From assembly GCF_000204055.1 (NCBI RefSeq), contig NW_006768838.1:115373-179372 (forward strand): 64,000 nt of DNA, read 5' to 3'. The position numbers and the translations under genes are program-made. Numbering within the stretch: position 1 is the stretch's first letter; each line of letters starts with the position of its first letter. Shown piece by piece: positions 9,347 through 37,691 of the stretch. The stretch is from Melampsora larici-populina 98AG31. Its lineage: Eukaryota > Basidiomycota > Pucciniomycetes > Pucciniales > Melampsoraceae. The notes under the pieces were generated by a model. That model was not told the origin of the DNA. It ran no database searches and worked only from the letters and a program-made list of their open reading frames with translations.

Positions 9347-9506
9347 CACTTCAAACATAATTTGCAATTCCGTAAGGAATTTTAATTTTTTTTTTCCAGA
9401 ATTTTGATTACCAGAAAAAACAAAATTCCGTGACAGAATTGGGACGGGATTTTGCCACTCCCAAAAAAAATCGAAATTCCTTGACGGAATTGGGACGGAA
9501 TTTTGA
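9347..9506 (+). repeat. Left terminal inverted repeat of the giant element
   Basis: 160 bp matching the reverse complement of 37532-37691 at roughly 80-85% by eye, with about 40 nearly perfect outer bases. It contains two copies of a subterminal unit of the form AATTCCGTGACGGAATTGGG followed by ACGGAATTTTGA, plus a short palindrome AATTCCGTAAGGAATT. Confidence 0.9.
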
Positions 9507-10383
9507 TAGTGTGCATGCTCATGTGCAAACAACCAAAAAATGTGAAGTGTCTTGTTCTTAGTCGTTGGACAGATGATGATGTTCCTGGGCCACGTTAATT
9601 ATGTTAATGAAGGGTCTTCATCTGGGCATCATCAGCTCTCAGAAAGCCTGGCTTTACATGATATGGTGTTGCAAATCTCCAAGCCTTCTTGACTGCATCT
9701 TTTACATACCTAGTTTCTACGGCAATTCGATTAATCAGACTCGTATATGACGGTTTGTCACTTTATCACACCTTCCCCTTTAGCGGGTACACCTTTCCAA
9801 CCTTTCACATTCAAACAATGCGGCCAGCGCCTTACCTCATCCGAACCCAATCACAATCATTCCCGTACTCGGCAAATGTTCAATCACTTCGAGCTGCGCC
9901 AAGCTGACCCAAAGCCTCACCACCATCAGCAGCAAAACACCCACTACTAGATGACTAGCCTGAGCCTCCACACTGCTGTACCTCAAACACTGCTCACTTG
10001 CTTTGTCCTGGGAAATCACCTCCCTGACTCCTCATGGACAGCAACCGCCTTCACCTCGTAGATCTGATTCTACAGTATCTTTTCACCTGTCAATGAAGCT
10101 AACTTTCCTACTTTACACAAGGATATCATTGCTCCTCTTGTAAGGAAGTTTTTAGGTACCACCCATTTGACAAACAGTGTACCTCTCAATAGCCTTCTTG
10201 GGACCAGTAGCAAAAATAGGGCATACAGGAGTGGTTGCAAGAATGAGTGCATCGCAATCAAACTACGCACGTTTTACGGTGATACAACTCTGATCGTTGA
10301 TGTACAACACTTATTTTCAAGATACGAGATCTCCAGAAACGCAATCTCTTTCTTTTTTCTCTTCATCTTTCTATGGTTTACAT
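9507..10383. other. Cargo region of giant element without recognised gene
   Basis: Between the left TIR and the TRA1 stop codon. A minus-strand coding-like stretch near 9590-9720 (INRIAVETRYVKDAVKKAWR) may be a small remnant of another gene, but it was not identified. The rest shows no clear signal. Confidence 0.35.
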
Positions 10384-13300
10384 TTATAACCATGGCATCC
10401 AAGATGGATGCATACTATATAATTTTGGTAAATTTGTAGCTGTATTGATCAATTCTGTTACATTCTGGCAAACGGGTTGTGGGTTATGTGGATCAATCTG
10501 AAGCAGAAAGAGAGGATGATTCAATATGTGTATTGAGTTTAGTTGTCCATATAAGGGATAGGTATAAGGGAGTTCACATACCGTCATTCTTTCCATTTCA
10601 CAACTCAATACGTGCGCTCGCTTAATCACGCTTTGTAAATTTTGTTTCACGGTGATCATCAATCGAGGATCATCAGGAGCTAATTTAATTTGTCTCATCG
10701 TATTCCAGGCTACAATCTCATCACGGACAAAGATTGATAACCGGTGTTCAAGTTCCTCCTGAAAATGCATTGGGCAGCCCGCCTGATTAGAATATTCGAT
10801 AGACAAGATAATCGAAGATATTGTCCCTTACGTGATCATCTGTCAAGGCGTGTCCAATCGCTATGATGCTTCAGCCTTGGATATTCGGTCTTGTTAAAAA
10901 TCGTTGAATGTTTGGAGTAAACCGAGATGGGACTGGGTCAGGATTGGAGAATTTGGCTTTGTCTTTCAATAATGCTACAAAACGTAGAAAAATCATCAGA
11001 AAACCCTGCATGGTTGTCCAATCTCATTGCATGAATGTTTATACGTACTGGGACACATATGTGTGATGTGAATTTGACCGGAAGATTGATTGAAGTAGAT
11101 ACGGTTCGGTGTCCGCTCGCTCATATCAAAGACGTAAGTCATGAAGACAAAACTTGCAAATTCGATGGTTGCCCGTTTTTGGAAATACCAAAGGTCCCCT
11201 ACAGTCCTCATACTTCGTGACATGTACCATGGAAGTGGCAGTATCAATCGTTATTTTAGTTCAAATATAAAACGTTATACTGGGTCTCAGAATACTGACG
11301 TTCTTCATGATCGACAATCCGGTATCAGTTTGGCAGAGATTTCATCTGCTATCTCCAATGTGGTGGCAGTCAAATCCTAGACCAGAAAAGTTAACGAGTT
11401 TGAGATATTAGCGAAGCGTAGATAATGCAAAATTTTATAAAGAAAGCCACTCACATCCACTCGATCGTATGCCAACGATCTCATCCGCTCAACATAGGCT
11501 ACGATTGGATCATCTTTAGCAAAGCCAGCTTCAGTACAATGTTCTTTATCAGATATCTTGAAGACTACAATGAGCTAGATCACTTTCCACAATCCAAACA
11601 TTTGCAGCAAATGGGACCACCAACGGAATGGTGAAAGATATATCACGACTTCGACTTGCTGTTTGACGTGACAGAGGGCTAAATTCAAACCAGAGATCAT
11701 CATCGTCAACGATATAGCTCGATAAGCTGATCCGCGACAATGAATTCTCACCAATTATTATTCAGCATACGGAAACACTGCATAACCCTTTCTTCCCTGC
11801 GACTCGCTCTTGGCAACGGTACTTGTATGATGAAAGTGTGTTTACTGGCGTCGTGTCCAATCATAGTGATCTGTCAATGCCATACGTCCTTGTGTTTCTG
11901 AGCACCATATCTAGTTGAAAACCGGAGGATCTTCACGAAGTGGTTGTTGTTATCCTCTTTGTATCGCTGAAAGCAAGGAAACACTGGCGTGTTAGCAACA
12001 TCCGGCACAAGTTGATACACCGTAGACAATCTACCTTGATATATTATCCAGGTACTTCAATCTCATCAAAGTTCTCATATTGAAACTCAAACATCCAATG
12101 ACTCGCGTTCTCAGGCGCCGATTTACGGAATTTCCTATCAAGATTGATCTCATACTTATTTCTCCATTCTTGCGATTGATATACATACGTTGGAATTGTC
12201 AAATTACATTAGATAAACTCGCGATGGAACATAGGCTATGAAGTAAGGTAATCTTTGTTAGCAGTCTCTCAGAAGTGAGGGAGAAACAAGGCTGACTTGT
12301 CAGGGCATCTTTGCTAAATTTTCCGATGATTTGGCCAATAAAGCTTTGATTTTCCCGCCAGGTATTGATAACATGTTTCAGATCAGCTGATCGGGAATCT
12401 AGGTTCTGACTAGTGGTTGTCTGTAAACTGGTAAAGATTTGAGCGGCCTCTTGAAGCTCGACAAATTGTTGAAGATTGCATCAATGGTATATGTGCTTTG
12501 GTCACAATTTCTGGGAGTTGGTACTATTGATGAAGCGCCAGCTGAACTGCCTCGGCACAGAGACGTGTGAATTACGCTTTTCCCTCATCGAGTGTCACAC
12601 CAGTATGATTCTTCATTAACGTAAGATATGCTTGAAGCGTATTTTTTCGAATACTTTGTCCAGGTGAAGAATTGAGTGCCAGTTTTACGTTCGCATGCTC
12701 CGTATCCCAATCAGGTCGTCGCCATTGGCATTCAAGCAGGAGTTTGCTATTGTGTTCTGCTCTTGCTAACTCGCTCAAAAAGTCCCACTGCAAAGATTGT
12801 AAGACTATCAACCTTTGGTAATCAAAGGGGATCCACGCACAAGAGCATCCAAATCAATATAGGAAACTTTGATCGACTCACCTGTTGCATTTTTTTAACA
12901 CATAGAACCCAATGATCCTCCCACAAACTGGATTCGTCTTTGCCCAATGTGATCAAATCTGAACGTGCTCTATCTTGTATACTGGTATTTAAATGAAACA
13001 TAAGTGATTCAAGAATATAACCAATATGAGCAATTGTACAAGGGACTGATGGCTTGATATAGTAACAGTTGCTTACAGCTTGTTCAGCAAGTGTCCATTC
13101 TCCGATTTGCTTTGTTTCGACGCAAAGAGCTTTCCGTCGCCATTCTGAACCACGTCAATCAGTAGAGATAGCCAATCATGTCATCAGTCCTACACTATGC
13201 CTGAAAGAGGTAAATAAATGTTGACTTACGACCATGAAAATATCTGTCTCCCCCAATTCGGTGTACAATTGAGCTAGCACGTCACTCACTATCTCCTGAG

Positions 13301-19400: not shown

Positions 19401-20008
19401 TTTCAATGCTGGTTGCATTCGCGTTTCCTGAACCAGTATTCGGCCTACATTGGTGACCAGAATTACACGGCCCAGCATGCGAGTCTTCAGAAGATTGTCA
19501 ATTAACCATATTGAAGAATGATGTAGCGTTCTCCTGGTACTCCTTGCCGGGACGCGTAAATGCTGGCGTTGCTTTGTGTTTGGGTGAACCACGCTCAAGG
19601 TTGGTATTGAGAACCGATCGAATCAGCGTGATAGGGAGTTGAATTTGAAGAGAAGACTTGTGGTGTTGATTGATATTGCGTTCAATCTACATGATGTCAA
19701 TACTAATGAGAGAGCGTGCTAAATCTCAGGATTTCAAGTTCTTGACTCTCTTTCCTTTCCACTTTGGTTTGAATTTGATCAACAAGGCAGTTCCAAGGTA
19801 AACTAGAACGTCATTCATTTCCTCAACCTCAAGAAGTTGATATAAAGATGAGATCGAATGAGAATATCGAAACCGTGGTGATTGTTGATGAGTGGTGTTA
19901 CAAAATACAACTTTCTCAATCTGATTGAACTTCAAAAATAAGTGTGAATATGCTCAGAACTCAAATGTCACCGTTAAGGATCGATTCAGCAACAAACCTG
20001 ATACTCAC
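19401..20008 (-). other. Unassigned sequence between TRA1 and helicase fragments
   Basis: Minus-strand open stretches (for example 19726-19935) were not recognised. The helicase fragment stops at what looks like an exon-intron border near 20009 (donor GGTGAGT in the minus sense), so part of this may be captured intron sequence. Confidence 0.3.
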
Positions 20009-20850
20009 CCAAGTCCATGCTTGACAATTTGTTTCATTTCTTTATTCCTGGAACCAGTCAAGTCACGTTTTGAAGAATCATGTTTTGGATGTTCACTTGA
20101 ATCGAAATATCGGAGCAAACTTTCATCAACAAACTTGTCTATCAACCTTTGAGAGGTTTTGACAGTTTCTTTACGTGCATGCACAAAGACCATCACTTGA
20201 TGATTTTCTTTAACTGGAGTCGAAACCTACGAGGGGCCTAGTTAGTCTAACAAGGGGGAATAGAAATACAAAGGAGAACAACCTTTTCGAACGCAGCTAA
20301 ATCCAAATTGGTTGTAGACACACTAGAAGTTGTTTTACTTCTTCCTCCAATAGATTGTTGTTCTAATGGAACAAGACAAAAGCTTGAATTAAACTCAATT
20401 TGAAATAGAGCAAACCTGATTGAATTGACTCTTAAGAAGTCGGGTACATGTATATAATTCAAGTAGCTGAAATTCCAACTATCCAAATCAAGGACTGTGA
20501 CGATGCAACCTGCAATGGATTGTACAAGAGTATTGGTGATGAAGTTTGAAAAGTGATGAGATAAAAAAGTGAGTAGTAGTAAGATAATCTTACTTGTTGT
20601 AACGTCCGGGCTGCGATAGTCATCACTTCAGCGCGATGGTCGTATAAGAGATACACTTCATCAGTTATCAATACCCTAACTTTCTGATAATTGGTTTTGG
20701 AAAAGGGGTACATAGAATGAAAATGACAAAAGAAGAAGTACTGATGGGTGTCGAGAGATATGAAAATACTAACAGACACAAGATCATTCTCGCCAGAGGT
20801 TTTCCTTGTCACTACGTCCCACTCCTCGGCAGCCTTGGTGAGTTGCATAT
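20009..20850 (-). pseudogene. Fragment of a Brr2/Slh1 (ASCC3) type Ski2-like RNA helicase
   Basis: Exon pieces appear in the right order for RecA domains 1-2 of this family. EEWDVVTRKTSGENDLV (20.8 kb) corresponds to the TPEKWDVVTR motif. KVRVLITDEVYLLYDHRAEV is motif II, with DEVY where the family has DEVH. VASSQSLIWIVGISAT is motif III. VPLEQQSIGG follows, then VFVHARKETVKTSQRLIDK is motif IV. It ends before motif V at a probable splice donor. GT-AG introns separate the pieces, so the capture was from DNA rather than cDNA. Both the N-terminal and C-terminal parts of the gene are missing. In cells these helicases act in splicing (Brr2) or in ribosome rescue and alkylation repair (Slh1/ASCC3); which of the two this came from cannot be decided here. 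Confidence 0.7.
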
Positions 20851-20929
20851 CACCTTGATTTCAAAACTCGGGCTTGCAATCAGTCAGAGTCGCTATTATC
20901 AAGCGCATCAAGTGATAAAAACTTACCCG

Positions 20930-21350
20930 TCAACTCTTTGATTACCAAACCTGAATGAGTATGGGTAGGCCGAAATCTCCAAAACTGAAAGGAAACACGT
21001 CATTGGTGATTCAAATCGATAATTGTTGTGTGGGACTCGACACAGATGTATCAAGGTAGAATCGCAAGTGATGAAACCACTCCAAGCGCGTAACAGACCC
21101 AACTCCATCCATAATCGAAAGGCGAATCACATCATGTTGATGTGCCTACTTGGTGATCAAGCGTTCACGGTTTCGTCGCATCACCAAGGAGCACGAAAGC
21201 AAGGAGATTCAACGTTTGCATGATGATCCTAAGCGCTTTATCCGATCATCCTCTGCAGCGTGCCGTCCACAATCTGTGCCCAGATAATCTGAACAGCGAG
21301 AACCACCATTTGAGCCGGGATGAGCTCTATCCAGTTTCCGAAGTTTTGCC
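20930..21350 (-). pseudogene. Fragment of cytoplasmic dynein heavy chain (region before AAA1)
   Basis: Two minus-strand pieces occur in dynein order. NWIELIPAQMVVLAVQIIWA (about 21.3 kb) corresponds to the pre-AAA1 segment whose consensus resembles PAQVLVLATQIxWT. HQHDVIRLSIMDGVGSV and LEWFHHLRFYLDTSV (about 21.1 kb) match the segment ending in the WxxxMRFY motif just upstream of AAA1. Flanking frames degenerate, and a stop (TGA) follows TQQLSI. Only about 120 residues of a motor protein of more than 4,000 residues are present. It is a captured fragment inside the giant TIR element and cannot be functional as dynein. Confidence 0.6.
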
Positions 21351-21946
21351 GACTTGTTGTTCCTTGAATCCCGAGCCAGACGGATGATGTACAATATGTA
21401 TCCATGATTTGTATTGATAACGTTCTTGTCCGGATGATCGAGTTGTAGGCGTTGTGACCGCAGAGGCAACATTCTCTGAGCAGGGCCCTGGGTGGTCTCA
21501 TCTTGTGGGGAATTCGTGTTGGATACGCTTTGAAGTTTTGGAACTTGACATGCTTGGTCCTGTTTGTTTCTAGAACTAGACTGGGGTGGTATCGGGATGA
21601 ATTCTTGGGTATTTGTATCTTAACATAAGTGTGCTCCACTTGTTTCAAATGACTTCCTAAGATAGATGGGTTTCGTGTTGGTTTTTTTCGGATATTGATT
21701 GGCGATCATACAGATAGCAAGTCCTGTGTTAAAAAAGCGGGATGGAGTGACGGGTGATTGGAAACAATTCCTAAGATAGATGGGTTTCATGTTGATTTTT
21801 CCGGATATTGATTGGTGATTGTGATGGATAGCAAGTCCTTTTTTGAAAAAGCATGATGGAGCCTGAAAAGATGTTGAAGAGTGTCCACACCATCAGTTTT
21901 GCTTGTCCAGTTGTAGATGCCCTACTTTTCTTAATTGAATCTGGCC
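21351..21946. other. Unassigned cargo sequence
   Basis: It contains a local tandem duplication: a block around 21655-21735 (CCTAAGATAGATGGGTTTC ... GCAAGTCC) is repeated around 21770-21850. No gene was recognised. Confidence 0.4.
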
Positions 21947-21955
21947 TAGACCGAT

Positions 21956-23258
21956 CTAACTTAACAAAGTCCCTCGATGCCTCGACAGCTGTCATTCAAC
22001 GAGTTGAATCCGCATGTCTCGCTAGCTTAACAACAAGCCCACTGTGCCAGGTGATTTTTCTCGGACTCGTCCGCCCCTGGCACAGGGGGCTTGCACATTA
22101 AACGACAATTGTTGCGTGACTAATAGCCACCTTTTGGTGGGTGTTTTTTCACTTCGCTTTTACACCACGACCCACAAATGCATTTTCTTCAAAAAAACAG
22201 TCAGATGAGCTCTGTCGAGTTATGAAGGAAATGGCCTCTTCAGAATCTCGACAGAGCTCATGATCGTGTTGATTCATTGAGGCTGCTTATTTTGAGATTT
22301 GAAATTTCAACCGCTAAGATTGTTATGTGTACCCTTAAAAAGGCTCGAGAGATGGTCAATTGACTCCCTTAAACAAACTTATTACTCGTTTTCCAGCTCA
22401 ATTCTTGTGAGCTGGCACTTTTGATTCTCTTTTTTTTTCTAATAGAAGTTATGTACAAGATGCTGAACTCATACCAGCCAGTTTCAGAAACAACATCAAA
22501 GTAATGTTGAATGAGATAGGATGGGTTGCATCCAAAAGTGACCCAAATTTCACTTTTTGGGGCTATTGGTCACGCCAGAGATGTCGTTTAATGTGCAAGT
22601 CCCTCGTGCCTCGGCTTCGGGTTACCGTGAGCTTTTGCACGATTGGACTTGGGTTAAGTTAGCATGTCTCGGCATGAGGGACTTACCCCCAAGGTCATGT
22701 TTTTGGCCTGAAGGCTTAGGCTCTTTTTGGTGGGGACAATCTTCTTTTCCTCCTTTCGGCGAGCACACCGAGGATTTTCTGCCAACCGCTCAGCCACATA
22801 TGCGCTCGCTCTGCCTACACATCTTACAACTGAAAGCATCCCTGAACGTTGGTTCCTCGCTGAGCTACATCAAATTGCATTTGTGTAATTTTGACATGTA
22901 GCTCGACTAAGGTCGAGGACTTCTTTGGTTCTATAGTGAGCAGTCCCCTGACATAGTCGAGCTACATGTGGAAATTACAAAAATTCAAATGTATGTAGCT
23001 CAGTGAAGAACGAGGGGAATTTGATGAGTCCACCGGTACGATATGGAGCAAGACTCAGCGCACATCTGTGTGCACGGTTGGCAGAAAATCTTCGGTGTGC
23101 TCACGGAAAAGAGGAAAACAAGATGCCCTCCACCAAGAAGGGCCTAAGCCTTCAGGCCAAAAAGCAGACATTAGGGGTAAGTCCCTCATGCTGAGACATG
23201 CGGATTCAACTAGTTTGAATGACAGCTGTCGAGGCATCGAGGGACTTTGTTAAGTTAG
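21956..23258. mobile_element. MULE-type MITE with 9 bp TSD TAGACCGAT
   Basis: Terminal inverted repeats of about 75 bp begin CTAACTTAACAAAGTCCCTC on both sides. The 9 bp TSD TAGACCGAT lies at 21947-21955 and 23259-23267; that length is diagnostic of the Mutator superfamily. Long inner inverted arms share AAGGCTTAGGC and TTTTCTGCCAACCG (22.7-22.8 kb versus 23.08-23.16 kb). A central hairpin lies at 22846-23021 around GAGCTACAT. It has no coding capacity and is itself interrupted at 22022-22662. Confidence 0.85.
22022..22662. mobile_element. Second MULE-type MITE nested in the first, TSD CATGTCTCG
   Basis: Ends CTAGCTTAAC and GTTAAGTTAG are flanked by the 9 bp CATGTCTCG at 22013-22021 and 22663-22671. 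Removing it restores the left arm of the surrounding MITE to match its right arm. Ends resemble those of the host MITE (CTAACTTAAC), so both probably use the same transposase. An internal hairpin GAGCTCTGTCGAG/CTCGACAGAGCTC lies at about 22207-22260. Confidence 0.8.
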
Positions 23259-23423: not shown

Positions 23424-24327
23424 CAGTCTAACCCGCGCTAATGCATAATTTGGGGAGACTCACTTTCCTATGCAATTAGACGGGTTATGCTTTTTGACCT
23501 ACACCCCCAAAATGCATAAAAATATGCATTTAGATTTTGGGGTGTATTGCATAGAATTATGCATTAGTACGGTTATTGTATTACCCCACCCATATGGGAC
23601 AAGAGAGGGTGAAGGTGGGAAAACTTCAGTAAGAAAGTGTTTAATTTTGAGGACATTTGTTGTCTATTTAGTACGATATGTACAGAAAGAAACAAAAACA
23701 ATTGTTTTCAAGAACATGCTTTATCAAGTACAATGTGTTACAAAAAACAGTCAACAAACAATAACTTTTGAGGACTTGTGCTTATTTGGTACGACATGTA
23801 CAAAAAGAAAGAAATTGAAGTTTTTTTGAAGGCTATCGATAATCAAGTGTTAGATATAGTCACACGTTGGAAGAAATCAGTTATTGCCACTTGTTTTTTG
23901 TTACCAAAAAACAGCTCGGACTCAAGCATCTCGGCATACTTCTGCAAAGAGTTGTCCAATTTGAGACCAGAAGCTGTACCAGTGCCCTCTATGTGAGCTA
24001 ATTCCTTGTTTTCAGTAGCAGACATGATGAAAAAAGATGCAAATTGATCTAAGGGAGCCGAAGATCGTGTGAGGTGGGTGATATCACTTTGCTGATCATT
24101 CCAAAGCACAACTGCTGTTGCTTTTTGTCAGTATCACCACCACATCACTGGGTTTGACCTATGCAATACCGCTTCCAAGATATAATTTTTTTTGCTTTGA
24201 CCCTATGCATCATGCAATATGCAATTAAAATCTTGTTTTGGCCCGCACCAGCGTGGTGGAGACCAAAACCTATGCATTTTGGCTGGATATGCATATGCGC
24301 GGGTATACAACAGCGCGGGTTAGACTG
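23424..24327. mobile_element. TA-flanked MITE with CAGTCTAACCCGCGC ends
   Basis: TIRs CAGTCTAACCCGCGCT at the left and the reverse complement at the right, flanked by TA (23422-23423, 24328-24329). The subterminal regions on both sides are dense in ATGCAT or TGCATAA motifs. It has no coding capacity. The TA target points to the Tc1/mariner superfamily. Confidence 0.8.
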
Positions 24328-24352
24328 TATTAAAATTTGTGTCAAACAGTTA

Positions 24353-25336
24353 GAGCATCCGCACTCGTTTGCGGTTGTTAATTTGGTCACGTGCGGTAAC
24401 AAACACAACATTAAGTAAAAAGTTACTTAACTCAACCAAATTTCGCACTCGTTTGCATTAGCAGCGCTGTAACTTTTATAACTTTACAGATAGTGCATGT
24501 ACTCCGCACCGGTCGTGCAGTAAGGTAAAGTTTTAATTTTTTGAGTACACATCACCTGCTTTCATGGCCAGTTTTCATGTGATAGAGGCACTGTTCTCTT
24601 CTTTGCACTAAGATACTAATACTCCATCTACACATGAAGACCCGATATCATCCTGTTCATCTACTCGATCGATAGATCTTAATTTAAAATTACAAATTTA
24701 ACATGAGTTTGTTCAGATCTTAATACATGAATTCCAATTAAAAAACAAAGGCTTTACTACATCGAGAAAGCTTTTAATGAGTCTGAATACACATAATGAT
24801 CTTGTAAAAGATTTAAAGATTTAAAACTAGGAAATAAAAATCCAAACTTCAATTTTTAATTTGTATCACTTGATCCTAAAAGTCCTCCAATGATTGGTCT
24901 TTTAATGTTGATTTTCTTAAATATTGACCTCTACATAGCTATATGAATCTAGACATCGTTCATTTTCATCTGAATGGTTTGGAGTCGAGTTCAAGATGGT
25001 TGATTGACTTATTTCAATTGAAGACATCGATCGGTGTCGAACGTTCTCGAGTTGATTCATGCAACTGTAAGGCTTGGAATTCATCGTGTGTGAGTGGTGA
25101 AAAGGAGATATTGGTTGTTGACTTTGGTGTTGGAGGTCTGGTTGAGTTGCCGGGAACAAGTCGTGATGTGTGATACCGCATGCGTTAGCCAATTGGTAAA
25201 TTTCCCGATTCGCTAACGCAAAATGACCGAAAATTAACTACCGCGGGGCTAATTTTTCACCGGTGTGGAAAAGACCCCGCGTTTGCGGTAAATTTAACCT
25301 TACCGCACCCGACTTACCGCACGAGTGCGGATGCTC
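24353..25336. mobile_element. PIF/Harbinger-type MITE, TSD TTA
   Basis: TIRs GAGCATCCGCACTCGT and its reverse complement are flanked by TTA at 24350-24352 and 25337-25339, the usual TWA target of PIF/Harbinger. Repeated TACCGCA or GCGGTAA motifs lie near both ends. A minus-strand open stretch at 24917-25192 was not recognised. Confidence 0.85.
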
Positions 25337-25624
25337 TTAGAGTGGTAGCGTGGAGTATGATTCTTGTAGGCGTATATGATGTCTGGTGCAATACTTAGGC
25401 TACGTTTGGCTGGGGTTAATTAATTTAATGTGCCTTAAAGTCGAGTGCATTTTGTTGCCACAAAATGCATTAATTCGATTTTTCTCCTTTTTTTGAATTT
25501 TTGTAACTAATGTACCTGATAATGCAATTCATGTTTGGCTGAAGTTGATCAGATTTGATCAACTTCAATCATCATTACCTTTCTTGACCACCATTTCAAA
25601 CTTAACTCCTTCATCTCAAAAACC

Positions 25625-26920
25625 ATGTCAGACTCTGACTTCTCATCTGACGAAGATCAATGGACCTCCTCGTCCTCGTCATCGTCAGCTTCCTCAGACA
25701 GCGATGAAGAACTGATGGAGCTCCTCATCGGTGCTGCTCGTGATCGTATTGAACTAGCAAATCGCCCCAAAATTCCGTGTCGAACATTGGCACTTACAGG
25801 CGCTATGTATGCGCGTGAGGTTTACGAAGGGAGCCCAGTACGCTTCCGAGAATTATGCCGAATGAACAAAGTGGCGTTTAATGGCCTAGTGAGACATCTT
25901 CAAGGAGACCTCAAGGATACCAAACATGTCACTGTCATGGAACAAGTGATGATATTTCTTTTTGTGGTTGGAAATGCTGGGTCAAACGCTCTCGCCTCGG
26001 AGAGGTTTCAACATTCTGGAGAAACAATCTCACGATATTACAATAAGGTCCTTTTGGCTCTTGAGAATCTAGAATCTCGATTGATCATCCAGCCGAATCC
26101 AGGAGCTCCAATTCCACAATCTATCAGTAGCACTCCAGTCCTTTATCCCTGGTCTCAAGGATGTGTCGGAGCTATCGACGGAACCCATATTCAGGCAATT
26201 GTTCCAGAGGCCAACCAGGCTCCTTATCGTAATCACAAAGGCACCTTCAGCCAAAACGTGCTGGCAGCTTGCGACTTTGATGGAAGCTTTACCTTCATCC
26301 TTGCAGGATTTGAAGGTAGAGCACATGATAGCCGGGTTCTTCAGGTAGCCCGTCAAGACGGACGCTTCCTAGTTCCACCAGGTACGTCAATTTTCTTGAA
26401 GAACTCTTTGTCAGAAACTTTCTAACAAAAATTTACATATATAGGTAGATACTACCTTGCCGATGCTGGATTTTCCAACCAAGAAGGCTTCTTGGCTCCT
26501 TACCGAGGTATCCGCTATCACCTCAAGCAGTGGAGCTTGGGTAATCGGCGCCCTTGAGACTACAAAGAACTCTTTAATTTACGACATTCCGGTATGCGTA
26601 ACGTGATTGAGCGTGTTTTCGGAGTCTTGAAGATTCGATTCAACACCCTGGTACACATGCGAAGGTTTCCTGTCCCAAGACAAGGGGCACTGGTTGTGGC
26701 TTTAGCAGTACTTCACAACATCATCCGGCAAAGTGGTGAAGACTTTTTTTTTGAAGAGTTTGATCGACAAGAAAGAGAACGTCAACTTACCTGGGACGAG
26801 GCTCAAGTGGTGGCTTACCGTGCACCAACAGCTGCTGAGAGGGCCAATGCTAGTGAAGATCGTGATACTTTAGCTATGGCCATGTGGCTTGATTACCTAT
26901 TGCATCCTCATCGTGTTTAG
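25625..26920 (+). pseudogene. PIF/Harbinger DDE transposase, one nonsense codon
   Basis: Exons 25625-26381 and 26445-26920 would give about 410 residues. Catalytic residues are visible: aspartate in GCVGAIDGTHIQ, aspartate in GFEGRAHDSRVL and glutamate in MRNVIERVFGVLK (DDE_Tnp_4 pattern). The N-terminus is serine- and acid-rich (SDSDEELMELL). The frame is broken by TGA at 26555-26557, in NRRP-stop-DYKELF, where an arginine codon CGA is expected; a single C-to-T change explains it. The rest of the frame is sound, so inactivation looks recent. Readthrough or sequencing error cannot be excluded. Confidence 0.85.
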
Positions 26921-27290
26921 GGAAACTTGTACAGTTTATTCACTAAAACTCATAGTTTGTATTTGCAAAGAGAGATAAAATGTATCATATATACTAATGT
27001 TTGTATCACAAGAACTTTTGTAACACAGTATTTTAATAAAGATAACTTTTGATCACAACAACTTTTGACTATTGAAAGCGATAACTTTTGAAAACGATAA
27101 CTTTTGAAAACGATAACTTTTGAAAACAATAACTTTCCAAGGTTGAAGAGTTGAGGATTGATTTCCCTTGATGAATACCTGTCTTCTGAAAGATTGATAA
27201 ATTTGAAGCAAGAATGTGTCATCAGTAAGACAAGCTTTCAAAAAGGGATACATCAAAAGCGTTGAGACAATACCTTCATAAGCTTACAGT
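26921..27290. repeat. Intergenic spacer of Harbinger element with GATAACTTTTGAAAAC repeats
   Basis: Between the convergent 3' ends lie three to four tandem copies of a 16 bp unit GATAACTTTTGAAAAC (about 27079-27140). No gene was seen. Confidence 0.7.
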
Positions 27291-28674
27291 TCATTCCTTC
27301 TTCTTCTTGAGTTCATCAAGCTTTTCTTTCAACCACTTAAAACAGAGATCGTCTTCTAATTCCATAAAGAATTCAGCATCTTCCTCATTTCTTAAGATTT
27401 TAGCTGCAGCCATACGATCAGAGTCTTCTGGAAAATTCTGTTTACTAGCTTCTTTGAAGCGCGCCATAGCTGAAGGTTGATATCGTTGAGGAGGTGGAGG
27501 GTGAAGGGCCTCCCTTTTGATCCGTGCTGCTTCAACAAGGGCTTCAGCTCGAGCATCAGCTTGAGCATCTTTTCTATTCTCTTTTTCAATTAGAGCTTGA
27601 GACTTGAGTGCTGAATTCTCTGTAATTTGCTTGAGTGAAGTCGCTAGATTTACAGGTGGCTTATAAGAGCCACTCGGCTTAGATGATGATGCAGATGTGG
27701 GTATGAGGTTGGGAACATGATTAGATGAAGTGAATGGTTTCTTTGAAGTCGAAGCTGCAGAGCGATCAGCCTTTGAGGTCTCTACTGGATTGGATGTATT
27801 AGGGTGAATTGCTGGTTTAGAGGTGATGGATGAGTTGGAAGGTCTTGGTGGGAGTGGAGGTGGGAGTGGGCAATTGACATCCTTGACTCCAGGGGGGTCA
27901 TCTGTGATGGAGTAGTGAAGAATGGAAGTAGTGAGCTTTTGAAGTCAAGTATGAAGAGAAACACACTTACCTGCTAAGTCAATGACTGTTCCTTCCTCAC
28001 CTCTTTCAACAGGCTCATCTTCACTGTTGTCGAGTGCCTCCTCAGAGGCTGTTAGTGAATACTTGCGTTTCAATTTCTGCGTACTAGTTCCTGTTCGATT
28101 AGCACCAGCAATCGGAGTAGAACCTAAAAGATAGTGCATTGGTTCGAAGTACTGAAATCCATGATCCTTGAAGATCTGGGATCCTGGGTGTCCCTTTAAC
28201 AGATTGTGAGATTAATCAATGGTGGTTGCTGAGAGAGATTGAGTTGAGATGACCTACACGGATCCAACCATTCCAGAACTCTGCATCTCCCTCAACATTC
28301 TGTTTTGCTTCATTCCAGCCCAAACCCGATCCTTCTTTGAGATCACGCATGAGACCATATTGACGCTTGAGCTGTGAAAGAGCAAGACAAACTAATCAGT
28401 CAATGTAGATGGTTTCAGAAGTGATAGAGAAAGACTTGAGATAGCTTACAGTAGCAAAATGGTTTTTGATTTGAGCGATACTGAGATCAAGTTCATATGT
28501 ATCATTTAAATCTGTTCGAGCTTTGCCCCAAACCGATGGCGGAAAATTGTTATCAGATTGATCATTGTCTTGATTACCATCTAGAAGTGAGTCAAGTAGT
28601 GTGCGTGTTTGGATTTCAGTCCATTTGGCTTGAGGCTTGGGAGCTTGGGAGCTCGACTTGGGTGGTTGACCCAT
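27291..28674 (-). CDS. Myb/SANT-like accessory protein of the Harbinger element
   Basis: Four exons on the minus strand (28674-28450, 28371-28258, 28193-27971, 27901-27291) join in frame to about 390 residues. The N-terminus has a Myb/SANT-like trihelix: WTEIQTRTLLDSLLDG, then PPSVWGKARTDLN, IAQIKNHFAT, LKRQYGLMRDL and GLGWNEAKQNVEG. A proline/serine-rich middle follows, then a charged C-terminal helix (DDLCFKWLKEKLDELKKKKE). In known Harbinger systems this partner brings the transposase into the nucleus and to the TIRs. The frame is intact, unlike its neighbour transposase. Confidence 0.8.
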
Positions 28675-29442
28675 TGATTGAATGATTTATGTCCAGTTTG
28701 AGTTTTGAATCTGGAAGGTGAAATGTAGGAGTCAATTTGTGAATGCAAATTTGTTCAGTATTTTGGGGGTCAAGGATATCGATTGGGAGGAAACCAGTTT
28801 GAGGGAAATAGAAATGAAATTGGACACGGTGGGATGGGCTTGAATCTTATCAATCCCCATCCCAAAACCATAAGGTTAACCGTGAGGAGCTGGGGAGGTG
28901 GCAGCCTGAATCTTATCAGTGCGCTCTGATTTCCCAGCTTGAGGGATAGACTGCTGGATTAAAGAAATGGAAGGAGGGGAGATGAAAAGATCTCCTTTAA
29001 TTACCCTTGAGTGAAATCGAAATGTGAAGTGTAGAAAGGAAATCGAGTGTTGAAAGGGTTGAATTGAAGGTGAAAGGTTTGGATGGGTTGAATCGAAGGG
29101 AAGTGGTGAAAGGGTTGAATCGATGAGAAGAGTGGTGAGATTTGAAAAAAAAAGACAAGTACAAATTTAGCGAAGGGAGGACCGATGGACGGGTCAAGAG
29201 GTAAATTTGGTTGGGGGATCAAGGCGATTTAATGGATTAATGCACCTTTTGAGCAAAATAATCGACTGTCGAGTCGATTATTTTTGAGTGCATTATTGGT
29301 GCATTTTGGGCAGTTTAAGTCAATTAAAAATTTGCATTAAATCCCAGCCAAAGCACTTTTTTTTTAATGCACATTAAATTCGAAATTTAATGTAATTTTG
29401 GATTTAAGGTACATTAAAATGCACCAGCCAAACGTAGCCTTA

Positions 29443-31140
29443 TTCTTTGTTGTTAATCAACAGATATGCATTTATCAAATGTCACCAACCTGAATCGGCA
29501 TGTAGGATTTGGTTTTGGGGAATATCCTTCACTCTATGAATTTAGGACTGTCATAAAGGATGCATTTTCAATTCAGGTACCAGAGTTCGCTTGAAAGTTG
29601 TGATACATACGTACATGCCTTTCAGTTCAGCCATGAATTTTGTGGGTGCTATTGGTGACATAGGATAGGATGCGATCAAAGTTCAACATTAACAAGGATG
29701 AGATAAACACAATGGTAGGTCCGAGAATGGAGAAGTCTCAAAAGAAGTGGTAAAAAGGATGAGATTCAACATAGGAAAAGATGTGCAGTATTGCAACCAG
29801 AGGAGAACATGGGTCGTTAATCGTTACAGTGAAATATCTTTGATACCGCGTTGGTTTCCACACGCAAGAATTGAATGTGTCGAAGAGTTGACTGGAGTTC
29901 TCTGTTCCTTCAAACACTAGTAGACTGCTGTGTTTATTCATATTCACCTCTTTCCGTCTTCTATTGTCCTTACCTTCCTTCTATATGAGTTGATTGGTGA
30001 TATATTATTTGAGGAGGTCGTGCTATTGCTAAATCCTTTGTGAAAGAAGGGGGTCAAGAGTCTCAACCACACGGTTCACAGAGGAAGCTTGCCTTTTTCA
30101 TGAGGCATCTTTGGAGACTATCTTGAGTCAGCATCAGTATTGAATCCCTATCATACATGCACATCAATGCAATACCACAACACACACATGGTGAAGTCTA
30201 AAAATGGAAGTAGAGCTCATAATTGAAAAATACAAAGCCAAAATTAAATGTACTTCAAGACTTCACAGCAGTATAAATTGACATTGTTGCCAATTCAAAG
30301 TTTTTTGGGCACTTGATTAATGTCCCGTGGAGTTTTGTAGTATCGGTGAAGAAGAGTTATTGACCAGATCATCGAAAGGCAATAAGCTGATTCCTATACA
30401 ACAAGCGAAATTTGAGTGAGAACTTGCAAGTATCCATGTAATAAAATCGGTGAAAAGACAATCTTTCACGTTCAAAATGATCTCCTCGCGCTATCTGTAT
30501 TTCAGTGAGCAATTCAAGCAATTTATCAAGCGTCTTGAGGATTCAACGGACATCCAACAGGTAAGGAGACTTGAAGACCTGTTTCATGATTCGAAAGTAT
30601 TTGGTGTTGATGTGTGTAAAACGGTTGGTCTTATTTGTGAGTAGATGTTTTATATATACATTTCCTGAGATATCGAGGTTTTTATTTGAGCGGGTGGATT
30701 TGCTTTGCAAGTGATGAGTAGGTCCCAACTTTTCAGATGTCCTGAAAATAATATATCAGGAGGTTGTAAGATGAAGTTGATGCCTCAGACTTTTTGTTGT
30801 GGATTTCGACATGATCTCAAAGTGAGTAAATAATTCAGTTGTCGGAAGCTTTTCTCTCTCGCCACTGCTAAGATGTTTTGTCAAATACCTGAAGCACATT
30901 TTAGATGTCAATGGTGGGTAAGGCCATTGGGTTGGATAGGCCCTAGGTGAAGTAGTGCACAGAGAGCTCAATCCGAGTAATGAAGCTTTGTTGGGTAATT
31001 TTCAAGTATCTCGCTTAGTCAAACGGGGACCGAGAAAAAAGACCAAACTGCAAAGAAGGATCAAACTACGACAAAAGCAAGACATGATTGGCACCCAGCA
31101 AAGCAAAAATTGCAGCCATAACAAACAATTTAGAAATGTA
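29443..31140. other. Cargo of giant element without recognised gene
   Basis: Scattered short open stretches on both strands. Nothing was recognised. Confidence 0.4.
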
Positions 31141-33400
31141 CCAATTCATCTTGAAACTCATTTTTAGCATACTATGATTTCAATCCGTATTTCATCGTCA
31201 ATAGGAATGAATGCAATAGTTTCTTCGAGATCACATTTGAGGATTTCTTCACAAGGTGTGTGGGGTGTAGTGTCCATACCGCCATGTAACGGTGAGAAAT
31301 TGTAGCTCACTAATAGCTATGATGCATCAAGGTCTGATTGTATAAGGCATTGTAAAGTATCCAGTGTACCTTGACTCATGAGATCCCAATCTACAGGCAA
31401 CCGTGTAATGATGATTCTGACCACCTCCTTCAGCAAATGCTATTGAAAATAATCAAAAAAAATTGCTACATATAAAGTAAGAAGAACAGAAAAAGGATTG
31501 ATATAACTCACATTTGATTGGAACAGCAGTACCAATTTCACAAGTCGCAACACGAGATAATCCTTCATGATTTTCATTCATCATTGTAAGCTGTTGAGAA
31601 ACAGAAATTGCACCACCTGTATTATAAACAAAGGTTAGTATGTATGAACAAGAAGATGATTTGGAATGAATTTATAGCAAACATGATTCACCAAAATTTG
31701 TAATCAATGAGTTACCTCCATGAGTTACCTCCAAATTTGCCAATATAGTTTGTTTAAAATGATATAAAATCAAATGTTCTATAAAATAAAAGTGATTTAA
31801 CAAAAAAAGCAAAGATATTAATTATTTACCTGTACCCATTACGATGCAAGTCTTTGATCTTTTAGTCCTAAATTTTTCACATCTTCTATATCTAATTTGT
31901 GTCCTTCCTGGGATCCACATACGTTTTAAGGAGAATTCATTGAAGTTATTATTTGTTCTACTCATTACTCTATATAATCCATCTACAACAGAAGGCAATC
32001 TAGTACTCCAATCTTCAGCTCAGTTAATAACATCAATCAATAGTTCATGGTTAAAAGCTTGATGTAGTTTAAGTGTAATACATACAAGTTGTTGAGGAAG
32101 ATGAATCTGATTGGCTTAGATGTTTAAGTCCATTTTTTAAACTCTTTTGCTAAAACTCAATTATGATTCTCGAATTGAAATTGTTAGAAATCTTCCATGT
32201 GGCATGCTTTGTCTAGATTTTGAAAATACTTCCGAGTCTCTTTTGTGAATCTGATAAACACATCTATCTTTTGCATTGGAATCTAGATGAAATCAAAAGT
32301 CCGAGGGACTTTCATGTGATTTGCCGATAGCTGAAAATGATTTAATGATTTTTACTGTCCCGTTAGGTCTTGCTGATTGATCTTTTTGTGCTTCGATTAT
32401 TTTACGTTCACTAGTGAGATGATGAGGAAGGCCAGAGAGACCACCAAGAAGAGTTTTGTACATTGAGACATGAATACGACTCGTTGCCCTTATTGTCGCC
32501 TCTCGGAATGTGGATTGATCTGATGTTGAGAAAATTTCAAAGTGTTTAAATCAAAGCTTCTCCAGGCGAGATACTTCTTTCTCAGGACTATGCTGCACAA
32601 TGGATGAGTTGTTGATCCCAGTACTCATATTACCCACTTCTGGATCGGCAGAGGTAGAGCTGCTTGTCAGCCTGATGAGAAGTGAAGACCACAACGTGAG
32701 TAAGCTCCGCCGGATTGGGCCCATTTACATTAACAGCCGAGCAACCACCAGCCCCAGCAGCATCTGAAGTGAGAGGGTATATTCTCTATGTATATATATT
32801 CGCCAAACGGTGCACCCACCACAGACTGCGGATCAAGTCTAGTGTTGAATGATAAATCAGAATCAGATTGCCATACTGATAAAAAACAATGGAGAAAAAC
32901 ATGACTACATACCCTGCGACTTTGGTCCAACCTGGACTGCGATACAAGATAGTAGACAAGATGATAACTTCAGGGATAGCAACTTCAGCCGAGGTAGTCT
33001 CTGTGCGAGCAAGATGGATTGCTGTATTGAAATCTTGATATAAGTTTTCTTATCGACCGTGATCTAATTATTGTCCTTGACTTTGTGCCAAAGATGAAGA
33101 AGTGAGTTCGGCGCAGTCTTCAGACTAATATGCGCAGGAGACTCAGTTAGTTTCTTGCCATCATCATCCATAACCAATACGATATATATTTTTGTTCGGT
33201 GCTTTCACTAAGCCATCTCTTGACATAGATGTTCTTGGTTTGATTGTCACTGGCTGTTCTGCTCAGGTCTTGGTTGCAAAAAGAAAAATCCGTTTTAGAA
33301 AAGAAAAAAGTGGGTTAAGTTTGGTTTTGTTCATAAAAAACTACTTACCGTACCAAACACGATGAGGCCAATCCAAGTTCACATCCCAACTTCTTCTAAT
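31141..33400 (-). pseudogene. Unidentified minus-strand coding remnants
   Basis: Minus-strand pieces look like exons of one or more degraded genes. They are EVVRIIITRLPVDWDLMSQG (31.4 kb), AISVSQQLTMMNENHEGLSR (31.6 kb), SVVDGLYRVMSRTNNNFNEF (31.95 kb), TLLGGLSGLPHHLTSERKII with DQSARPNGTVKIIKSFSAIG (32.4 kb), LDPQSVVGAPFGEYIYIE (32.8 kb) and EVAIPEVIILSTILYRSPGW (32.95 kb). Stops and frame changes separate them. I do not recognise the family; it may be another captured host gene. It lies just downstream, in the minus sense, of the sterol-glucosyltransferase-like fragment, so some exons may belong to that gene. Confidence 0.4.
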
Positions 33401-33409
33401 GTGTTGAAA

Positions 33410-34880
33410 TCAATATAGGACTTCGACGCAAGCATGCGACTTCGATGCCAATGCACCAAAAAGGGTATCCATCATCTCAGTAACAATCAAACTGATTTCT
33501 AGTAAGTTGGCCATAGCAGTGGAACTATAGAACATCTCATCACTAAATACGACAGGTCCGGATGATCTTGTCATTTCTTGAATGGTATTGCTTTGATCTT
33601 GTTGAAATGGTGGTGAATGTCTTCTGACGGAGACCACATGCATTGACAACTGCGATCTAGGCTGTGATGGAGACCTAGAAGTATGTCAGATTGATTCTGA
33701 ATAATGTGTCGAAACACTTACACTAAGACTACCACCTGCACCTGAACGCATAGGTGATTCCACATGTCTAACAAGAGCCACCTCAAGACTGGTTAGTCTC
33801 TTGTTTGTCCGTGCTCGACGAAGTGTCCATTGAGTTATGCTTAAAGTTTCACTTTTGTCTGCAGGAGTCTGTGATAAGCCACTCAAGTTTTGATCAGAGG
33901 TTTCATCGAACTGGTCGACCTGAGGTTCAACGGGTGTACGTTGGGTATGGTCCTGTAGTTTACAAACTTTGATAGAGGTGGATCGAATTGGGCTAACAAC
34001 ACACTTATCACTGGTGCTCGAAATATTTCGAATTTGTTGAGTGATGCTACTTGAAATTGTTTTAGGTCCGATAAAGGAGTGGCGAATACGAGAGGATGAT
34101 GGAGGATGAACTTGAAATGTCAAATCCCTGCGTGGAGCGCGTGCCGTTGATGAACACCTGCGTGGGGGGTACTCTGCTGGATTGTGGGGTACTGCGCCGG
34201 CCAAATTCCAAACAAGTGGCGGGAGTGATGTTGTGTCCGCCGATGATGGAGGAGAAATAAAGAATTCTGAAGAGGAGGCCTTAGTTGGAAATTCGGTCAA
34301 AGATGCTTGAATGAAGCGAGGTTGAAGTTGATCAAGTTGTGAAGGTGGATGAGGTATTGTGACAGAAGATGTTTGGTTCCGAAATTGGGTGATGGCGTCT
34401 TGAATGCGATTAAGTGGAGTCGATAGATCTTCGGCAAAGGCGAAAAAGTAATCACCGGGTACAGCAATTGCGTTGGAAATATTGCTACCCATTGTGTCTG
34501 AAGGGGTGGTGACTGTCAAGGCATCAGGAAATGGTTGAGATGATTGTTGATAAGGAGTGTTGTTGGTAGTTGAGTCGCGTCTCTCAATCCATTCGCTTGT
34601 CTTGATACGGACTGTCTCAACAAACCGCAATGACTGACATTGTTCAACCTCTTCAATGGTCTCCAGAGGAATTTCAATTTTGAAGTTTTCACCCAAATCT
34701 TGACAGGTAAAGACGATTCGTTTGAGAGACTCGATCCATTCTTGCCTTTGCTGACTATCCGTTGAAAAGGTACAAGCCTTATTGGAGACCGCTAATCTGA
34801 ATTGATGAAGATTCTTCGCATTTGAGAATCTTGGCTCAAATGTTGTACAGTAGCGTGATTCAAGTTGACTGGTAGAAAAA
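33410..34880 (-). pseudogene. Fragment resembling ATG26/UGT51 sterol glucosyltransferase (GRAM-PH region)
   Basis: A long minus-strand open stretch runs from a splice acceptor near 34,876 to 33,686. It begins with a PH-domain C-terminal half (FRLAVSNKACTFSTDSQQRQ, EWIESLKRIVFTCQD) and continues KIEIPLETIEEVEQCQSLRF and DYFFAFAEDLSTPLNRI. This order (PH helix, then IPLETIxEVE, then DYFFxFF) is characteristic of the membrane-targeting part of UGT51/ATG26. A long serine-rich linker follows, then another exon-like piece at 33,410-33,660 (SSGPVVFSDEMFYSSTAMAN). The glycosyltransferase domain is not present, so this is a fragment. In cells the enzyme glucosylates sterols and acts in pexophagy. Confidence 0.5.
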
Positions 34881-35283
34881 TAAGGTTCATAACTCGAAAA
34901 ATACCAAAATAAAATTGAATCCTTGGGAACAAATTAGCAAGGGTACCTGATGTTCTTTCATTCTACTTCTCCTTATTCTGTTCGTTTTAGATAAGCATGA
35001 AAGCAAAGATACCTTGTGATAATCATGCTCATGTTGGCTGATTGAAGAGACGGAATCGGGGTGTGTCGTGAGTGTATGGAAATCTGAATTGAGTTACATC
35101 GAGGGAAGCCAGAATGAAGCCAGACTAACAGTTTAAATGCGGATGAAGTGTGAGCAAAGAAGTGTAGATAGAAGTGTCGGTTTGGAGGCGGATTAAAACT
35201 GTCTGTTCAAGTAATTGTCTGCCGATTTTATTGAGAAGGAATGTGATTGAAATTTGTTTCTGAGACTGGAGAAGTGCCTTCCT

Positions 35284-35529
35284 TCAAGACATATCGCGAG
35301 CTCCAAAGATCGAGGGGGGCATCAGTCGGTTCAACAATCGTGTCATCCTGAACGCTACTGGCGGGTTTTCTTGTGGCGGAAGTCTTTTTAACCGGCTGTG
35401 TGAAGCTTTTCTACTCGATTCAGGCTTGGCCTTGGTCTCTGGGGCACGTATAGCAGTAAAGAAGATACATGGTCCCTTTGTAAGATGAATAGAGCTAAGC
35501 AAAGCAAGCAAAATTGAGTCAGGGATCAA
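35284..35529 (-). pseudogene. Short unassigned minus-strand open stretch
   Basis: Reads DSILLALLSSIHLTKGPCIF and then a basic, proline-rich tail. It may be an upstream exon of the sterol-glucosyltransferase-like fragment (the order would fit), but no motif confirms it. Confidence 0.25.
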
Positions 35530-36039
35530 AGGGAAGAAATTAGCATTGTCTAGTTTTCACTCACTTGGGATCATCACCCGCTTCCCAATCTGATCCACAG
35601 TTTGGCGACGATAGCAACATGATGTGGTTCTCAAGTCTACGGCCTTTCTAGAACGAAATTGGCGCAAGATGCAAGCCGGAGCGGGCCAACTTCTAGAAGC
35701 AGACAAGTTGGCCTATTTCAGGGTATTTTCAGTGAAATGAACTAGCTATGGACCAATATACATCAATTCTCGTAGGTAGATCTTCAAGACCTTTGTGCCT
35801 CCGTTGACCAGCGTTTCCACAAAATGTGGCTAACCGAGCTTTGATCATCGTGTGTCCTCTAGGTAACCATGCAGCAGTCCGAGTCGGACCCCAAGGTTGT
35901 TGAAGAAGATCAGGCCACCCAAGTACATGTGTGTCACGCTGACGCTCTAGAATGGCGATACGTGCGAAGCGACAATTTACAGCTGGGGTTGATGAAGAAG
36001 ATAGTCAATTTCTGAGAGGTCTTGGTGGTCCAGTATTGC

Positions 36040-36260
36040 CAAGTTGGAGGCCAAAGTATGTAAATGCTAACCCCATTTGAAATGAACCAACCATGGCTCA
36101 TCGGTTGCCTCGCCACACATCCAACAAATTGTCCTATCTGGCTCCGATTCAACAGGATCGTGAAAGTGTCCCGCCGAAGCGAGGATATCAGGAGTAAGAC
36201 TGAATGACTCAGGATGAGGCCACCAAAGGGCTTTCGAGGATGGTCTTCTTGCACTTAAAT
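36040..36260 (-). pseudogene. Fragment resembling a BIR (inhibitor-of-apoptosis/Bir1) domain
   Basis: On the minus strand a frame reads WWPHPESFSLTPDILASAGH, then FHDPVESEPDRTICWMCGEA and TDEPW. The pattern W-(P/H)-x-LTPxxLAxAGF, then DxVxCxxCG, is that of the first half of a BIR zinc-binding repeat; the last histidine-cysteine half is lost or lies beyond a decayed intron. Fungal BIR proteins (Bir1/survivin) belong to the chromosomal passenger complex. Only about 45 residues are present, so this is a captured scrap in the giant TIR element. Confidence 0.45.
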
Positions 36261-37531
36261 GTCATCGCTCGAGCGGAATGTGAGCAGATCTCTGGACGAT
36301 TCACAGGCCGATCTACGAGGTCCGTCTTGATGTTGCAAGCTTTTTGATTCTGGTTCATCGCTTGTCAATGATGGTGATCCACAGGGGTGATTGAGAGTAT
36401 AAGGACTTCGTAATCGAGGTGCCGGTATTCATGAAGCTTCTCCCGAACGTGGTGGTCCTAGTTGCATTGTAGAAGTGATATTTTCAATGGCTACGCTATG
36501 GCGATTTGTTGAAGGCGAGTTTGAAGCTGGTTCTCCAGGGATTGGCGCTGTCAGTAAGACTGAAGCTTACAATGATGCGAAAACAAAATGAAGAAGTCTG
36601 GATGAAAATCAAGTAGGTAAAAGAACAAAGATATATAAATAACCACTACACATCCAGCCTCATCCAGCCAACTTCCGAAATCTAGGAACAGCTGGTAATT
36701 ACATTTGCGCTTGGATCATTCAATTTCTAAAAGCCCATGTTTCTGTCCAGTGATGGTTATTCGATTGCACTTATTGAATCGCCATCTACATACGTGGTGA
36801 TACAAATTATAACCGGCCGTCATGGAGTTTAGCCATCTTTGTATGTATCTCCCTTGTAAGGTACACGTTGAGTGCTTGTCTGTTGTATCTACTTTCCCTT
36901 GTTTTACATGCATCTTACGAAAAAATTCATCTTGTTTACATTATCTCGTTGATACATATCTTAAGCTCTTCTTTTCATCATTGCACATTGCGTAAGTCAA
37001 TCATCGAACGAGCTTTATGTACCATTTCTCCTTTGTGTTTTGTGTGAATCTAAATGAGATAGATTGTTATCTTCATCAATTTCCATTGCATAAGACTCGC
37101 GATTTTGATAGTGGGGTCCATCTTGAGTTTGTCTACAATGGTATTCTGGACAAAAACCAAGAGCACTCAACACCTGAAGGATCGATAGAGGAAATAGTTA
37201 GCGGTGGTTTGAGTCTGTCAGCTTTCAAGACAGAAAATGCTTAAATTATGACGCAAATGGTTCGTTGATGGTCAAGATGGATACAGAGATGTCCAGTAAG
37301 GTGATTCAAGTGAGAATGGCCACGTCCGCAGAGAGGATGAAGACGACGAAGAGAATGGGATTTTCAACAAACTTACGCTGGACCTAAGTGCTTAGGGGAC
37401 TTAGTGCAGTTTGGATTTCCAAGAGTATCAAAGGATCAATTGCGTTCATGGCGGAAAATTGAAACGGTCTTGAAAATTCTGTCCAAATTTTGGTTTTTTG
37501 CAGGGCGTGGGTGCCCTTTTTTTGTAGACAA
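36261..37531. other. Cargo of giant element without recognised gene
   Basis: Includes low-similarity open stretches (for example 37017-37244, plus) that were not identified. Confidence 0.4.
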
Positions 37532-37691
37532 TCAAAATCCCGTCCCAATTCCGTCACGGAATTTTGATTCTTCTTTGCAGCGTCAAAATTCCGTCCCAAT
37601 TCTGTCACGGGATTTTGAGACTTTTGGTAATCAAAATTCTGGAAAATGAAAATCAAAATTCCTTACGGAATTGCAAATTATGTTTGAAGTG
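37532..37691 (-). repeat. Right terminal inverted repeat of the giant element
   Basis: Reverse complement of 9347-9506 at roughly 80-85% by eye. It contains the same two subterminal AATTCCGT...CGGAATTTTGA units and ends GTTTGAAGTG, followed by the AGT duplication. Confidence 0.9.

Follow-up and report, generated by a model that had tools for sequence, protein, structure and literature searches.

The subject of this analysis is a giant insertion in the genome of the poplar rust fungus Melampsora larici-populina 98AG31, found in a stretch of 64,000 nucleotides (NCBI RefSeq assembly GCF_000204055.1, contig NW_006768838.1, positions 115,373 to 179,372, hereafter the window). The window is part of the contig called C74 in an assembly of 98.3 Mb and 243 contigs, and other contigs are likewise indicated by C and a number. 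The insertion (the C74 element) extends from 9347 to 37691 of the window, 28,345 bp exact to the base, and is very probably a giant non-autonomous transposon of the CACTA/EnSpm type, working like the Pack-CACTA elements of plants but much larger. It belongs to a multicopy, transposed family comprising two complete insertions flanked by target site duplications (TSDs), a probable third and seven single ends.

The element lies inside the 5' long terminal repeat (LTR) of a chromovirus, a type recognised by eye, with an open pol frame at 39167-43324 (plus strand). The LTR is split into a left part of 133 bp (9214-9346) and a right part of 29 bp (37695-37723), both on the plus strand, and the rejoined halves match the 3' LTR (43412-43573, plus strand) at 162 of 162 bases. 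The trinucleotide AGT is duplicated at the two borders (9344-9346 and 37692-37694), and the chromovirus has a 5 bp TSD of its own, CACGG, at 9209-9213 and 43574-43578, from which it follows that the layers are properly nested. Since this second duplication brackets the whole insert, an assembly join is unlikely; moreover, N is absent at both junctions, the sole N run of the window being at 44441-44540. The inverted ends, of the form CACT..AGTG, are about 160 bp long and 88% alike: the left terminal inverted repeat (TIR; 9347-9510, plus strand), which contains AATTCCGT repeats, pairs with the reversed right one (37528-37691, minus strand), as given by a self-comparison row of 165 bp (9346-9510 / 37692-37528, E 6e-54). 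The split LTR, the AGT duplication and the matched ends on a unit of 28,345 bp had been described in a first-pass annotation made from the sequence, and every coordinate holds; the CACGG duplication is an addition to that description.

The assignment to the CACTA/EnSpm superfamily, also proposed in that annotation, agrees with the CACT ends, the 3 bp TSD and the subterminal repeats; because no TNP2 transposase was found inside the C74 element among the matches listed, it rests on the ends. All 13 ends of the family begin with CACTTC or CACTAC: those on C85, C2, C40 and C47 have CACTACAA, and the C74 element has CACTTCAA. The 3 bp TSD is exact in two of the three candidate pairs (AGT on C74, GGG on C85), with no fixed target. 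Within 500 bp of either end of the C74 element, the AATTCCGT subterminal repeats are enriched about 40-fold: the motif AATTCYRT and its complement occur there 5 and 6 times (10 and 12 per kb), whereas the inner 27,345 bp has 7 occurrences (0.26 per kb) and the 35,655 bp of the window beyond the element has 9 (0.25 per kb).

The extent of the family was determined by scanning the genome with a degenerate pattern of 35 terminal bases, allowing three mismatches at most, and with the reversed pattern as a control. The pattern occurs at 17 places, 13 of which have no mismatch and are the same 13 ends that BLAST gave, while the other four, with three mismatches, are unlike family ends; the control gave no place at all. 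A second locus with paired TIRs and a 3 bp TSD, on which the first-pass annotation had made its case depend, is present at C85:162174-181530, a complete element of 19,357 bp whose TIRs are 91% alike and whose TSD is GGG. On C40, two ends (761225 and 837202) face each other 75,978 bp apart and are 97% alike, with at most 84% identity to every other end of the family; a piece of a NatA auxiliary subunit is found at the left one. The seven single ends are on C2, C47, C94, C19, C64 and, twice, on C7, where the two form a tandem duplicate; sequence around the ends on C7 and C94 was read to about 1.5 kb, and the sequence right of the C2 end is N from 449952 (N-masked 449952-466705). The C19 and C64 ends have the same flank and thus represent one duplicated locus. 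These right ends (C19:1173237 and C64:6862) lie in a 2 kb stretch with 98.7% identity between the two contigs, which reflects either a segmental duplication or the presence of two haplotypes in the assembly. An uninterrupted apyrase-type frame (C19:1166083-1168458), about 5 kb inward of the single C19 end, may be cargo that has stayed intact or else a neighbour, and hAT-like frames, judged by eye, lie near the C64 and C47 ends. A protein encoded on C19 has its nearest matches in Melampsora (M. americana, 88% over 98%; M. larici-populina, 96% over 52%).

Several large housekeeping genes are present in the cargo as broken copies, among them TRA1. From 19891 back to 10296 (minus strand), the C74 element copies the host TRA1 locus C9:1842061-1855206 (13.1 kb), to which it is 84-88% alike. 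Host TRA1 lies in a long open frame, whereas the C74 copy is decayed, with at least three internal deletions and an FATC frame at 10384-10827; a further piece is present in the C2 element. The domain PF20206 is matched seven times across the genome (22 of 22 candidates scored), twice on C9, four times on C74 and once on C2, and the main C74 match contains 18 stops. In the C2 copy, a GT..AG stretch that looks like an intron of the host gene has been retained, which indicates that genomic DNA was copied. In a three-way comparison of 422 codons among C74, C2 and host, from which gapped codons and seven sites differing in all three were excluded, nonsynonymous (N) and synonymous (S) changes amounted to N58/S31 on the C74 branch, N49/S23 on the C2 branch and N13/S38 on the host branch, the neutral expectation for N/S being 2.92 with transitions weighted twofold. 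Thus, both captured copies have drifted almost neutrally since capture and the host branch has been conserved. A pairwise block of 940 codons gave N126/S165, with N somewhat below the prediction of the three-way blocks. Between the C74 copy and host TRA1 the third codon positions differ in excess (177/950, against 65/949 and 57/952 at the other two positions), as would be expected if TRA1 had been functional in the element for a time; this idea is not needed, as the three-way count assigns most of the excess to the host branch.

The captured gene and the split LTR also provide a relative date. The change on the C74 branch of TRA1 is about 7.0% (89 in 1,266 sites). The LTR pair differs at 0 of 162 sites, which by the rule of three gives a 95% upper bound of about 1.9% between the LTRs, or 0.9% per copy. 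Assuming similar rates, the insertion therefore dates from roughly the final eighth of the period since the capture of TRA1, or from a still smaller part of it, which bears out the earlier claim of a recent movement despite decayed cargo.

As a whole, the cargo of the C74 element is a patchwork, with matches to 11 places spread over 10 contigs (C9 included, with two places on C41 and with C3/C59 taken as one). The first-pass annotation had proposed a single transposition rather than a piecemeal assembly: one insertion of a cargo-laden unit is upheld, but the load itself was put together from many places and was joined by four nested transposons that total about 7.2 kb of the interior. From left to right, short fragments at 9788-10077 (C97:160721-161009, 75%) and 10076-10289 (C85:104021-104237, 81%, with a related piece, 69%, near the C2 end) precede TRA1. 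TRA1 is followed on the minus strand by pieces of an SLH1/ASCC3-type helicase (20005-20860; best PDB matches E 1.5e-6 and 3.3e-6), part of which is common to the C85 element, and by a piece (20963-21132) 77% identical to the dynein heavy-chain part of that element. Ten small frames had no Pfam family above the cut-off, and two of them were later named, as SLH1/ASCC3-type, through the PDB matches. The right part is made of pieces 71-83% alike to the places they match: 29959-30371 (C2:127347-127765, 81%); 30442-30670 (C3:3065553-3065790, 77%, and C59:546178-546417, 74%, near dynein-like matches there); 30912-31289 (C6:615491-615850, 76%, weaker at C56, C149 and C55), possibly a repeat judging from these several matches; two fragments within 31317-32785 (C41:835817-836468, 71%, and C41:808021-808841, 77%); 32798-33770 (C42:264877-265969, 81-82%); 33786-35272 (C120:45489-47323, 81-83%); and 35271-36335 (C25:588573-589635, 83%). 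Here two pieces have given rise to a chimaeric open frame of 415 codons (33686-34933, minus strand), in which residues 1-382 match C120 (76% at the amino acid level) and residues 387-415 match C42 (E 7e-4); no homologue of it was returned by the protein database and PDB searches. Overlaps of 2-4 bp occur at the junctions 10076/10077, 33279/33282 and 35271/35272; being taken from the ends of local alignments, junction overlaps are partly at chance level.

The C85 element is of the same kind. It contains dynein sequence (DHC_N1 and AAA_6; PDB E 5.5e-46), pieces of FAS alpha, FAS beta and FYVE, with one frame that fuses FAS_I_H with FYVE, as well as a piece that resembles the SLH1 part of the C74 element at 70% and has a 66-residue frame with no Pfam family. 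Two dynein heavy-chain-like loci elsewhere, C3:3066345-3069719 and C59:551161-552561, are 73-91% like the C85 cargo, and either may be the host gene. Eleven pieces, 76-100% like their sources, follow one another in C85:170001-180000. Six of the ten junctions overlap by 0-8 bp (three between different places and three at skips inside a single source contig) and four have unmatched gaps of 22-187 bp. Some of the fragments are 97-100% identical to their sources and were thus probably added recently. Intron-like source skips of 62-70 bp suggested an origin of the pieces from spliced RNA, which was rejected: at the C3 skip, coding-like sequence has been lost between GG repeats; the skip in C56 starts like a splice site, yet the C85 element has a C37 fragment there, with 8 bp in common; and an intron-like stretch is kept in the TRA1 copy on C2.

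Three relatives share part of their cargo, as dynein and SLH1 are found in the C85 element, dynein, SLH1 and TRA1 in the C74 element, and a dynein region and TRA1 on C2. The order dynein, SLH1, TRA1 is compatible in all three (on the minus strand in C74), and the best source matches of the genes are on separate contigs (C9, C3/C59 and C144/C33). The C2 dynein region is assigned by 75% DNA identity to a C85 segment upstream of DHC_N1, whose own frame has no Pfam hit. A common ancestral cassette would be the simplest reading of this arrangement, and the compatible order suggests that the cassette is probably old, with a young insertion on C74.

From these data a mechanism can be proposed. A transposase of the TNP2 type, encoded elsewhere in this CACTA-rich genome, would bind the terminal repeats and cut and paste the whole unit in trans. 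The cargo would grow by repeated rounds of repair or replication in which other loci are copied between the ends, through gap repair or template switching, and the source loci do persist elsewhere in the genome. The string of small pieces suits copying, and the long colinear TRA1 piece suits a route through neighbouring elements. Later deletions and nested insertions would reshape the load. The elements on C74, C85 and C2 probably go back to an older cassette with dynein, SLH1 and TRA1 in that order. The cargo would be freight, the ends having stayed mobile while TRA1 drifted. More tentatively, and at slightly less than even weight, the family may be a giant Pack-CACTA lineage of 19 to 76 kb in Melampsora that grows by accretion from this cassette of unlinked genes, inherited, enlarged and still mobilised.

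Several observations weigh against this interpretation. Many cargo pieces do not abut: unmatched sequence of 4 to about 240 bp lies between them. The left ends on C2 and C74 resemble each other, although TRA1 has opposite orientations in the two, and the pattern of TRA1 sites is star-like, which also permits independent captures. Nine of the 13 ends (two on C40 and seven single) have no partner proven by a TSD; in particular, the C40 ends are flanked by TCA and TAA, an inexact TSD, so that a 76 kb element is likely there, not proven. No TNP2 match falls in the C74 element, the C85 element or C40:761225-837202 among the matches listed, from which weak ones may be missing, and no autonomous relative that shares these ends came to light, the ends of the TNP2 loci not having been read.

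According to one alternative, C74 and C2 took TRA1 from the host separately, so that the cargo they share would point to a hot spot of capture rather than to descent. The deletions in the two copies of TRA1 are different, and the changes common to both look like selected changes on the host branch (N13/S38). On the other hand, that one gene was captured twice seems unlikely, and dynein and SLH1 are also common to the elements in a compatible order. Separate captures are thus rather improbable, but stay a live rival because of the star-like pattern of the TRA1 sites.

It is also conceivable, though we consider it doubtful, that the C74 element descends from an autonomous giant that gained its cargo before losing its own transposase. 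About 8.3 of the 76 kb on C40 was read and the remainder could contain a decayed transposase, and parts of the C74 element, for instance 21132-21956 and 29443-29959, match little or nothing; against this stands the lack of TNP2 among the matches listed for any paired copy. The supply in trans of the proposed mechanism is supported by the number of matches to TNP2 (PF02992, Transposase_21) in the genome, at least 150 (150 of 195 candidates scored). Two of them lie near family ends, at C7:396423-396872 (24 kb inward of a C7 end) and C40:756187-756648 (5 kb outside the left C40 end), and are possible helpers. The Plavaka domain (PF18759) has 24 genome matches, 16 above the cut-off and the best of 35 bits, none of which is in the paired elements; many coincide with TNP2 loci.

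The C74 element does contain a transposase, in frames of the DDE_Tnp_4 type at 25619-26920 (plus strand), and these could make it a giant PIF/Harbinger transposon driven from within. Elements of that superfamily also produce 3 bp TSDs, the usual target being TWA. However, the frames are a passenger, enclosed by the terminal repeats of a nested Harbinger element of about 4 kb (approximately 25395-29442, plus strand, with ends TTAGGCTACGTTTGGCTGG), and DNA of this nested unit next to the frames recurs elsewhere at up to 98%. Genome matches to the protein number at least 148 (with 143 of 449 candidates scored), the next best being at 94-96% and none of those listed lying in the C85 element, and AGT and GGG do not suit TWA. 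Harbinger was therefore rejected as the driver, a role that is very improbable. Least credible of all is an artefact joining two unrelated contigs at the LTR, for which the repeats at the borders and an assembly of 243 contigs with N gaps could be invoked, in view of the two nested TSDs, the halves that restore all 162 LTR bases, the joins free of N and the second complete copy elsewhere.

The other nested transposons are a foldback-type element (21956-23258, 644 bp of which are identical at C7:1249446-1250089), a high-copy short TIR element (23421-24330) and a Harbinger-type miniature inverted-repeat element with TSD TTA (24353-25336), which has more than 20 copies at 97-98% among the matches listed. 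The short TIR element is a very recent burst, given that at least ten full-length copies elsewhere are 100% identical. Near-palindromic foldback stretches are present at 3802-4632, 22662-23201 and 62714-63000 of the window. At the borders of the chromovirus, a frame to the left (8738-9229, outside the domain scan) terminates inside the 5' LTR, and another with a MULE transposase domain (43544-44254) starts inside the 3' LTR and extends rightward; from these frames, the chromovirus itself may have split an older MULE-type gene.

The systems to be compared are cited here from excerpts of the respective papers. Gene capture by Pack-CACTA in plants, by hAT and Helitrons in fungi (for Helitrons see PMC4289320), and EnSpm elements in rusts are already known. 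The family terminus CACTACAA is the terminal string used for Arabidopsis Pack-CACTA (PMC8903248). Like Pack-CACTA, which have CACTA ends, no transposase and coding DNA from one or more host loci, the C74 element carries host coding DNA (TRA1, SLH1 and dynein included), and no transposase of its own was found among the matches listed. It differs in belonging to a basidiomycete family with sizes of 19-28 kb, probably 76 kb, and in containing pieces of a 13.1 kb locus; the median captured size is 224 bp in animal Pack-TIRs and 305 bp in Pack-MULEs (PMC8277862).

CACTA elements are known from Pucciniales (PMC12210899), and EnSpm elements of Puccinia, with related families in Austropuccinia, have 5'-CAC..GTG-3' ends and 3 bp TSDs (PMC12730594), as does the family described here. 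Those families, however, have a transposase and a TET/JBP gene, and host-gene patchworks are unmentioned in the excerpt. Among the titles and abstract beginnings listed from the open-licence literature, none described CACTA elements that capture genes in rust fungi, a weak negative. Enlarged EnSpm elements of Chondrus crispus (CACTA families of 16-20 kb) share the unusual size but have four or five open reading frames rather than decayed host genes, and the efficiency of cut-and-paste is said to fall above about 6 kb of cargo (PMC6431247). In the Dothideomycetes, hAT elements captured histone H3, which has since decayed (PMC6710886); this is also a fungal cut-and-paste element with a captured and decayed housekeeping gene, although it involves one small gene in hundreds of copies, another superfamily and inactivation by repeat-induced point mutation.

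Against this background, a unit of 28 kb has moved recently, and multi-kilobase gene loci were copied between a pair of CACTA ends. Very large multi-gene loads thus seem to be within the reach of cut-and-paste transposons in rust fungi. Captured TRA1 and the split LTR together provide an internal clock, with old cargo and a young move, and the C85 and C74 patchworks record how cargo is stitched in transposon-rich genomes. With this family, size limits, the capture of cargo and the formation of chimaeric frames in fungi can be put to the test. Starships, whose hallmark is a DUF3435 tyrosine recombinase, are likewise giant cargo-carrying mobile DNA of fungi, but the long TIRs and the 3 bp TSD speak against placing the C74 element among them. 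Starships mobilised by a tyrosine recombinase are described from the Pezizomycotina (PMC12134995); the accreting lineage, if real, would be the basidiomycete, DDE-transposase counterpart of such giant cargo transposons.

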